This document shows, in pieces, positions 8,288 to 28,833 of a stretch of 38,732 bases of DNA. Position 1 is the first letter of the stretch. Each line of letters starts with the position of its first letter. A model generated the notes under the pieces. It was not told where the DNA came from. It ran no database searches and saw only the letters and a program-made list of their open reading frames with translations. The stretch lies in the NCBI GenBank assembly GCA_001820485.1, contig MHPU01000020.1, forward strand, positions 11,589 to 50,320, given 5' to 3'. The DNA is from Candidatus Staskawiczbacteria bacterium RIFOXYD1_FULL_32_13 (GTDB lineage: Bacteria; Patescibacteriota; Minisyncoccia; Minisyncoccales; Staskawiczbacteraceae). The position numbers and the translations under genes are program-made.

Positions 8288-8301
8288 AGTTTTTAAAATT
8301 T

Positions 8302-8366
8302 CAAATTACAAGCACCAAATTACAAACAAATTATTTGTGATTTGTGATTTGTAGTTTGTGATTTTT
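8302..8366. repeat. Short inverted repeat (CAAATTACAAGCACC family), gene-less copy A
   Basis: caaattacaagcaccaaattacaaacaaattatttgtgatttgtgatttgtagtttgtgattt: imperfect inverted arms; lies between the hppA start codon and an upstream TATACT on the minus strand. Confidence 0.8.
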
Positions 8367-10481: not shown

Positions 10482-10555
10482 AAAATTCCAAATTCCAAAT
10501 AACAAATTCCAAACTATTCGTTTGTGATTTGGTGCTTGTGATTTGTGATTTATTT
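10482..10555. repeat. Short inverted repeat (CAAATTACAAGCACC family), gene-less copy B
   Basis: Left arm AAATTCCAAATTCCAAATAACAAATTCCAAAC; reverse complement of right arm AAATCACAAATCACAAGCACCAAATCACAAAC. Same family as 8302 and 27301. Confidence 0.85.
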
Positions 10556-26570: not shown

Positions 26571-26600
26571 TTATAGCATAAAACAATATCCCTGTCAAGG
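26571..26600 (-). promoter_or_regulatory. Consensus promoter for the SPFH-like gene
   Basis: Minus strand: TTGACA GGGATATTGTTTTATGC TATAAT (17-bp spacer). Confidence 0.7.
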
Positions 26601-26656
26601 TATTTACATATAACTTAAAAGGAATTATAGTAAAATTAAGCTAAATAAATAATCAT

Positions 26657-26944
26657 ATGAAAAATATTTTATTAGAATTTAATCTACCAATGTCCATTTT
26701 AAAAGAGGGTAAAAAATTTATTGCCTACACACCGGTGCTAGATTTGTCTACTTCGGGGAATAATTATGAACAAGCTAAAAATCGATTTACTGAAATTGTG
26801 GAAATTTTCTTTGAAGAAATAATCAAAAAAAATACTATAGAAGAAGTCTTAACTGATTTGGGGTGGAAAAAAAATCAAACTAAATGGACCCCACCAATTG
26901 TTATCTCAAACGAATTACAAAACATTAAATTAGCTTGCCGATAA
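26657..26944 (+). CDS. HicB-family antitoxin
   Basis: KEGKKFIAYTPVLDLSTSGNNYEQAKNRFTEIVEIFFEE; directly adjacent to hicA-like ORF. Confidence 0.8.
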   Translation: MKNILLEFNLPMSILKEGKKFIAYTPVLDLSTSGNNYEQAKNRFTEIVEIFFEEIIKKNTIEEVLTDLGWKKNQTKWTPPIVISNELQNIKLACR

Positions 26945-27175
26945 ATGCCAAGAATAATCCCTATAAACTGGAAAAGATTTGAAAAATTTGTCCTTTTTGT
27001 GGGATGTGTTTTTGAGAGAGAAAAGGGCGATCACAGAATTTACAGCCGAAAAGATTTACCAAGACCCATTGTTTTCCCAAGAGATAATGAATTACCAATT
27101 TTTATTATAAGGAATAATCTTAGAGTGCTTAAAATTAGCCCAGAAGAATATATTGATATTTTAAAAAGAATATAA
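26945..27175 (+). CDS. HicA-family toxin
   Basis: FVGCVFEREKGDHRIYSRKDLPRPIVFPRDNELPIFIIRNNLRVLKISPEEYIDIL. Confidence 0.87.
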   Translation: MPRIIPINWKRFEKFVLFVGCVFEREKGDHRIYSRKDLPRPIVFPRDNELPIFIIRNNLRVLKISPEEYIDILKRI

Positions 27176-27204
27176 AATTTATAAATTTTGATTTATCTAT
27201 GATG

Positions 27205-27228
27205 CAAGCATTATTGCTTGTTTTTTTG
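27205..27228 (+). terminator. Terminator after hicBA
   Basis: CAAGCA ttat TGCTTG TTTTTTT. Confidence 0.7.
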
Positions 27229-27284
27229 TTGCTATTTTTGGGTTATTCACAGAGCTATGTATATTGATTGTTTTTTAGATGTGG

Positions 27285-27299
27285 TATAATAACTTAATG
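27285..27299 (+). promoter_or_regulatory. -10 box and ATG now cut off from prgI by an inserted element
   Basis: TATAAT aactta ATG, then immediately the inverted-repeat arm. Confidence 0.5.
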
Positions 27300-27300
27300 T

Positions 27301-27752
27301 AAAATTACAAATTACAAGCACCAAATTACAAACAAATTCTAATGACTGAAAATAAAAATTCAAAACCATATGATCTTGAAGAACGAACTGCAAAATTTGC
27401 AGAAAACTGCAGAGATTTTATTAAAGGTTTGTCTAAAACAATTTCAAATATAGAATATTCTAAACAACTTATTAGATCCTCTGGCTCACAAGCAGCAAAT
27501 TATATTGAAGCCAATGAAGCACTAAGTAAAAAAGATTTTATTCATAGAATTAGAATTTGTAGAAAAGAAACAAAAGAAAGTTGTTTATGGTTAAGATTAT
27601 CTGAAACTAATAATATTGATATTTCAGAAAAACAAAAACAATATTTACAAAATGAAGCAATAGAAATTAGAAAAATCTTTACATCAATATTAAATAAAAG
27701 TGTTTTGTAATTTATTATATTTTGTGATTTGTTATTTGTAATTTGTAATTTT
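27301..27752. mobile_element. Compact element: asymmetric terminal inverted repeats enclosing one S23/IVP four-helix-bundle ORF
   Basis: Left arm AAAATTACAAATTACAAGCACCAAATTACAAACA; reverse complement of right arm AAAATTACAAATTACAAATAACAAATCACAAAAT. Confidence 0.7.
27342..27710 (+). CDS. Four-helix-bundle protein (23S rRNA intervening-sequence protein / S23 family)
   Basis: RTAKFAENCRDFIKGL ... SKQLIRSSGSQAANYIEANEALSKKDFIHRIRICRKETKESCLWLRL. Confidence 0.93.
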   Translation: MTENKNSKPYDLEERTAKFAENCRDFIKGLSKTISNIEYSKQLIRSSGSQAANYIEANEALSKKDFIHRIRICRKETKESCLWLRLSETNNIDISEKQKQYLQNEAIEIRKIFTSILNKSVL

Positions 27753-27758
27753 CGTTTT

Positions 27759-28166
27759 ATGGAGCAATATCCTATTCCACAATTTATTGAGCAAGAAGGA
27801 AAAATAGCTTTCTTTATTTCTTTTAGACAATTCTTTTACCTTTGCGGTGGAGGAGTAATTTGTTTTATTTTATATTATACAGTTCCATTTTTTATATTTG
27901 CAATTTTATCTTTACTTATTATGGGAGTTGTTGGATCTTTAGCTTTCTTAACAGTAAACGGAATGCCAATAATAAATATTGTTTTAAATTCTATTGGTTT
28001 TTTAACTCATACCAAAAATTATACTTGGCACAAAAAAGAATCAGCTTATCCATTTAAAACTGTAAAAAGAATACAAATAAGAAAAATTGATGAGGGCTCA
28101 AAATTGCAAGCACAAACAAGTAGATTAAAAAAAATACACACTCAAGTAGAAATGAGAACCAAATAA
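27759..28166 (+). CDS. PrgI-family membrane protein (T4SS)
   Basis: MEQYPIPQFIEQEGKIAFFISFRQFFYLCGGGVICFILYY. Listed ORF start at 27729 lies in the repeat arm. Confidence 0.8.
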   Translation: MEQYPIPQFIEQEGKIAFFISFRQFFYLCGGGVICFILYYTVPFFIFAILSLLIMGVVGSLAFLTVNGMPIINIVLNSIGFLTHTKNYTWHKKESAYPFKTVKRIQIRKIDEGSKLQAQTSRLKKIHTQVEMRTK

Positions 28167-28167
28167 A

Positions 28168-28833
28168 ATGCCAACAAACTCAACACAAGATTTTTTAGAA
28201 ATAAAAGATATAAGAGAGGGAGTTATTATTTTAAAAAATAACTCAATTAGAGGAATACTAATGGTTTCCTCGCTTAATTTTGCTTTAAAATCTGAAGAAG
28301 AACAAACAGCAATTATTTATGCTTATCAAAGTTTTTTAAATTCTTTAGATTTTTCTTGCCAAATTATTATTCAATCAAGAAAAATTAATATCACTCCATA
28401 TTTAGATGGCTTGCAAGAATTAGAGAGAAGACAAACTTCCGATTTGATGCGCCAACAAACAGCAAGTTATAGAAAGTTTATTAAAGAAATGGTGAGAGGA
28501 GATATGGTTATGACTAAAAACTTTTATGTTGTAATTCCTTATGAATTAATGGAAATTTTTGGTGCTTCGGGGATTACAAAACAATTTGATTTTTTAAAAA
28601 ATGTCAAAGGTAAAAAACAAGAGACACAAGAAGTAAAAGACCAAGATTTTGAAAGATGCAAAACTCAGCTTTGGCAAAGAATGGAGTTTTTAGCTATGGG
28701 ACTTCGCAGATGTGGTCTTGAAGCTGTTCCCTTAACAACTCCTGAATTAATTGAACTTTTTTGGTCAATACACCATCCAGAGCAAGCAGAAATTGGATAT
28801 TATCCTGAAATATTACCAGAGTTATTAAAATAA
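28168..28833 (+). CDS. VirB4 N-terminal/TraC-like protein
   Basis: Position between PrgI and the VirB4 ATPase; sequence of the N-terminal VirB4-like type. Confidence 0.65.
   Translation: MPTNSTQDFLEIKDIREGVIILKNNSIRGILMVSSLNFALKSEEEQTAIIYAYQSFLNSLDFSCQIIIQSRKINITPYLDGLQELERRQTSDLMRQQTASYRKFIKEMVRGDMVMTKNFYVVIPYELMEIFGASGITKQFDFLKNVKGKKQETQEVKDQDFERCKTQLWQRMEFLAMGLRRCGLEAVPLTTPELIELFWSIHHPEQAEIGYYPEILPELLK

Follow-up and report, generated by a model that had tools for sequence, protein, structure and literature searches.

A 452-bp S23 gene unit with heptamer-repeat arms in a Staskawiczbacteria genome is one copy of a probable small mobile element akin to the intervening sequences of rRNA genes

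The intervening sequences (IVS) of 23S rRNA genes have been suspected of mobility since the 1990s, and no catalytic residues are known in the S23 proteins encoded in them. S23 genes are very common in uncultured bacteria, where they are unexplained. S23-encoding IVS of this kind, as in Coxiella and Leptospira, measure 428-444 nt, and that of Coxiella has a 28-bp stem and is processed by RNase III (PMC4990558). S23 genes are also known from rRNA insertions of CPR bacteria (PMC11270868) and from positions beside cas genes (PMC3936711), and the family is related to the Avd protein of diversity-generating retroelements (PMC10053308). Tandem heptamer repeats are likewise known in several phyla without a mechanism, and the text of the papers describing them in cyanobacteria, Xanthomonas and Beggiatoaceae neither mentions S23 nor proposes how they arise (PMC4692102, PMC4679880). 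Among open-access papers, we found no link between S23 and heptamer arms and no description of the dispersed hairpins reported below; subscription journals could hold an earlier one. The element to which the present locus belongs offers one home to both, the S23 proteins that have long been orphans and the heptamer repeats that lacked an explanation.

The window analysed is a stretch of 38,732 nucleotides from Candidatus Staskawiczbacteria bacterium RIFOXYD1_FULL_32_13 (contig MHPU01000020.1). It contains the only S23 gene of its genome (27342-27710, forward strand, 122 aa), the product of which matched PF05635 with 44.5 bits (cut-off 33.8) and TIGR02436 with 64.4 bits (cut-off 24). The best solved relative was PDB 2rld, with five chains, while an AlphaFold single-sequence model reached a pLDDT of 51 and was not used. 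An earlier note had described this ORF as enclosed by inverted arms, and such arms are indeed present at 27301-27332 and 27721-27752, 32 nt each and 388 nt apart. They are complementary at 28 of 32 positions (88%), whereas no ungapped inverted pair of 32 nt exceeded 25/32 when this 1.5 kb was dinucleotide-shuffled 150 times. The left arm (forward strand) reads as the heptamer units AAAATTA, CAAATTA, CAAGCAC and CAAATTA followed by CAAA, and the right arm holds the units in inverted form. Directly upstream of the unit lies a -10-like TATAAT (27285-27290, forward strand). Downstream it adjoins a PrgI-family gene (T4SS; 27759-28166, forward strand; PF12666), which marks the insertion site by synteny in relatives. 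The whole unit measures 452 bp and sits between a HicA gene and PrgI, not in a 23S rRNA gene helix, and Rfam at gathering score gave no match in 26600-28200. The neighbours identified by family tests were HicA, Band_7, PrgI and a TraG/VirB4-type ATPase. The unit itself has one ORF, as the earlier note had held in calling S23 its only protein, and a reverse transcriptase was absent both from it and from these neighbours. The HicA toxin gene and a small ORF before it (probably its HicB partner, with no Pfam match) occupy 26657-27175, just upstream of the unit, and were absent at the PrgI site in the relatives read out.

The unit resembles the 23S rRNA IVS of Coxiella and Leptospira in having S23 as its sole gene, terminal inverted repeats and a similar length (452 bp versus 428-444 nt). 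It differs in its position in a spacer between protein genes, its arms made of heptamer runs, its dispersed gene-less copies and its occurrence in many phyla. Diversity-generating retroelements share the related protein family, but the S23 unit lacks a reverse transcriptase, a template and a variable repeat. We file it with the S23/IVS kind, as a variant located outside rRNA.

Among 289 genomes of the class, 204 had S23 genes, and relatives 47-69% identical to the window copy were drawn from this set. At nearly every one of these loci read out, inverted arms directly adjoined the ORF; their absence from other S23 loci would, by the earlier note, have refuted its proposal. Each arm is built of about five units of about 7 nt, and the variable letters change in concert across all units and both arms. 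We call these variants dialects: CAAATTA (the C dialect) in the window copy, and TAAATCC, GAAATCC, CAATTTT or CAAGAAA in other loci. Arms with z > 3 accompanied 51 of 62 S23 genes in this class of the CPR (control ORFs, 13/189) and 51 of 69 in other phyla (11/163). The pooled count over many phyla was 102 of 131 versus 24 of 352 control ORFs; the controls came from the same loci and were partly neighbours of the element, so that the contrast is, if anything, understated. With controls at 7%, we rejected the idea that gene flanks in general carry such arms. The S23 flanks showed an autocorrelation peak at lag 7, and plasmid S23 genes of Nostoc, Geminocystis and Bernardetia were flanked by like heptamer runs. 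The 7-nt intergenic tandem units and horizontally patchy occurrence of the published heptamer repeats (PMC4692102, PMC4679880) are similar, except that the heptamer runs found here form the ends of S23 units. The earlier note had also pointed to a difference between the arms (GCACC in the left, ATAAC in the complement of the right) and had given weight to asymmetric ends. The difference is real in the window copy. As a general rule it failed, and the idea of asymmetric ends is weak because both arms contain GCACC in several copies, L045, L053 and L067 among them; asymmetry varies between copies, and fixed asymmetric ends were rejected since many copies differ.

DNA matches between relatives of different families covered the arms and S23, about 450-490 bp, and stopped at the arms. 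For example, L188 and L190, from different families, shared 471 bp at 85.6% identity, beginning 39 nt upstream of the start codon and ending 63 nt past the stop codon, and L206 and L207 shared a 446-bp match. In 43 pairs the match spanned S23 and both arms and ended there. Pairs within one genome also occurred (L294/L318, 91% over 561 bp; L301/L317; L311/L330). The closest S23 relative of the window copy belongs to another order and lies at another locus with unrelated flanks. The insertion site in the window is the spacer between the TATAAT box and the PrgI start, which was empty in seven family relatives (L247, L249, L250, L252, L254, L255, L256). In other relatives this spacer was occupied: by a gene-less hairpin in L243, L244 and L246, by an S23 gene of the window subfamily with a different dialect in L253, by S23 genes of other types in L240 and L251, and by a GxxExxY gene in L238 (PDDEXK_3 according to Pfam) and L241 (judged by resemblance). 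A gene-less hairpin on contig 43 of the same genome was missing in the congeners G001 and G002; at this empty site, the one clean case, no target-site duplication was seen and some site bases were replaced. For some S23 loci (L028/L029/L032), gene order is conserved and inheritance is vertical, and the hairpin on contig 14 is common to the genome and G001. Because whole units match between loci with unrelated flanks and empty sites exist, the S23 unit is, as judged from these comparisons, mobile, passing in one piece from site to unrelated site and from one bacterial family to another; vertical inheritance alone is ruled out on the same grounds. The mobility proposed in the earlier note thus gained support from arms at unrelated loci, from whole-unit transfer and from empty sites, the lack of which it had named as a refutation. 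The heptamer units within the arms, the hairpins lacking a gene and the occurrence in many phyla go beyond it.

Searches of the genome for further arm copies, on which the copy counts rest, revealed gene-less hairpins consisting of a left arm, a short loop and a right arm at window positions 8295-8366 (forward strand) and 10482-10553 (reverse strand), others on contigs 14, 43 and 11, and single heptamer runs within conserved genes. When two of the hairpins were folded as DNA, z was -3.5 (8295-8366) and -5.0. The exact pattern AAATYMCAAGCACCAAATYMCAAA occurred in at least 119 stretches of the species collection, including, among the matches listed, Desulfobacterota, Planctomycetota, Aminicenantes, Omnitrophota, Bacteroidota, Acidobacteria, Elusimicrobia, Patescibacteria, Nanoarchaeota and others. 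Within the class (289 genomes), the pattern was present at 22 places in 15 genomes, and its reversed form at none. A partner arm was identified for 91 of 127 pattern copies, in most cases within 115-175 bp; one copy carried S23. The motif AATGAC[CT] was found in 34% of hairpin loops versus 0.9% of shuffles, 40, 33 or 26 nt after AAGCAC. For actual S23 genes of the subfamily, the usual distance of the start codon from AAGCAC is 26, 33 or 40 nt, with 30 and 52 seen once each. On this shared spacing, AATGAC[CT] in the gene-less hairpins represents a vestigial S23 start codon at heptamer-quantised distances, and the hairpins are best read as internally deleted derivatives of S23 units. S23 genes were present in 47 of 50 genomes with a hairpin and in none of 14 control genomes, a co-occurrence that is no more than supportive, since lineages of this kind commonly have S23 in any case; the three hairpin genomes with no S23 match are draft assemblies.

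Heptamer runs also lie in frame inside conserved genes (L015, L019-L025, own genome), where they encode KSQITNHKSQ-like peptides. From the encoded peptides, we take these genes to be TrmD, MetG, TatD, CysS and others. In such in-frame copies and in gene-less hairpins of 70-175 bp, the system is similar to MITEs and Rickettsia palindromic elements (PMC10969869); unlike them, it has an identified parent that bears the gene and shares the arms and the start codon, and no target duplication was seen at the single empty site examined. The congeners carried other dialects at the same in-gene places, and hairpins of other dialects in G001 and G002 at the sites orthologous to 8295-8366 and 10482-10553. 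These differences suggest re-invasion or rewriting of the arms in place, with in-place turnover as plausible as fresh insertion, and a plain cut-and-paste model explains neither. They also speak for an account in which nothing moves at all, the arms arising where they stand by heptamer slippage and quasi-palindrome correction, also inside the presumed TrmD, MetG and TatD genes, and S23 being vertical or moved by ordinary recombination. Xanthomonas heptamer repeats, which for the most part keep to the same intergenic positions (PMC4692102), fit that account. Nonetheless, we consider it very improbable, the least favoured of the explanations weighed here, since whole units that match at unrelated loci already contradict it and it has against it the empty sites, the GCACC hairpins with a vestigial start codon in many phyla and the coupling of dialects described below.

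If the arms move, does S23 contribute? Among the matches listed, 59 of 82 dispersed arms in ten genomes matched the S23 of their own genome in dialect (8 expected; the low-complexity CAATTTTC dialect was excluded from the count), and the maximum in 5000 label permutations was 54. The closest S23 pairs had pN/pS of 0.06/0.78 and 0.06/0.36; the subfamily is under strong purifying selection at the protein level. S23 units lying between co-directional genes were in sense orientation in 55 cases versus 1 in the CPR and in 46 versus 3 in other phyla, and gene-less hairpins were split 31:38. Ten cyanobacterial and Bernardetia plasmid loci showed no such bias (3:4), hence it is not universal. The act of insertion seems to favour neither orientation, and copies in sense are apparently retained because transcription of S23 is required. 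The coupling of dialects, the purifying selection on S23, the sense bias of its units and the vestigial start codon in gene-less copies together provide indirect indications, read from sequence, that S23 contributes to movement.

A different enzyme could still do all of the work in trans, with S23 riding along as cargo or regulator. REP hairpins in other bacteria are moved by Y1 transposases, and REP/REPIN sequences with their RAYT resemble the present system as short dispersed palindromes of a type coupled to one protein per genome, although S23 is a helical bundle and not a Y1 enzyme. Two Y1 genes are indeed present in the genome. One of them (L013, 1293-2033) has its own, unrelated palindromic ends GATCGAAGTCGGGCTTCGATC, so that the Y1 transposase gained no support as carrier of the heptamer ends, and the second (L026) has no adjoining C-dialect arms. 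The other candidate, a PD-(D/E)XK protein of the GxxExxY type, is encoded by genes that occupy the same PrgI site and are flanked by similar heptamer arms. Set against both is the tracking of each genome's S23 by the arm dialect, and we judge a passenger role for S23 unlikely, while giving it more weight than any other rival. With its GATCGAAGTCGGGCTTCGATC palindromes, the L013 gene forms a REP/RAYT-like unit of the genome in its own right. As for the GxxExxY (PDDEXK_3) genes, inverted heptamer-like arms of the ACAGATT and ACGAATT types were seen at the PrgI region in L238, L240 and L253, and such a gene with its arms, able to occupy the site of S23, is possibly a sister element.

The stem might instead act in RNA, being processed like a 23S rRNA IVS and spreading by reverse transcription. 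The homology of S23 with Avd (PMC10053308), the Coxiella IVS with its 28-bp stem, S23 ORF and RNase III processing (PMC4990558) and the sense orientation of S23 units are consistent with this. However, mismatches between the arms, read on the S23 strand, gave G-U and A-C in 249 versus 242 cases in gene-less hairpins and 88 versus 110 at S23 loci; in the absence of a G-U excess, we discarded an RNA stem under selection. The gene-less hairpins have no orientation preference, and the unit encodes no reverse transcriptase. Spread through RNA is in our view highly unlikely, only slightly less so than an absence of mobility.

We regard as probable, if well short of certain, that the unit is a DNA-level mobile element related to the rRNA intervening sequences, with S23 as its putative arm-binding factor and the catalyst supplied in trans. 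The 452-bp unit would then be one copy of a widespread small element consisting of an S23 gene between heptamer arms. S23, the solved relatives of which are homopentamers, may bind heptamer units of its own dialect, in double-stranded DNA or in a single-stranded hairpin, and bring the arms together for excision and insertion. Host replication or repair, or some nuclease or recombinase, could provide the enzyme, and gene-less hairpins of the right dialect might be moved by the same S23. The S23-encoding 23S rRNA IVS would be copies of the element that inserted into rRNA genes and that RNase III can cut out there thanks to the stem. More tentatively, and as a possibility to which we give somewhat less than even weight, S23 proteins could be the sole dedicated mobility factors of an undescribed class of transposable elements in Bacteria and Archaea, their pentamers recognising heptamer arms and directing host enzymes, with 23S rRNA IVS, dispersed repeats and in-frame peptides as products. 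The proposal gives the old suspicion of mobile rRNA intervening sequences a general form. It offers S23 a candidate ligand in its own arms and the heptamer repeats a candidate source, both testable. As the sole protein of the unit has no known catalytic site, it also raises the question of what does the cutting; should S23 prove to be the mobility factor, this would be a new class of element.

No S23 relatives were found in viral contigs by tblastn. In two cyanobacterial plasmids, from Pseudanabaena and Anabaena (L284, L285), S23 genes lay in cas loci, one flanked by cas6 and cas4 and one by cas2 and cas1, which agrees with the published occurrence of S23 beside cas genes. Another dispersed repeat, GTCATTGCGAGGAGCCCGCAGGCGACGTGGCAATCTAGAG, was present at some twenty places of the genome and in the congeners, for instance in L016 around 746-965 and 1013-1232 and on many contigs of G000.
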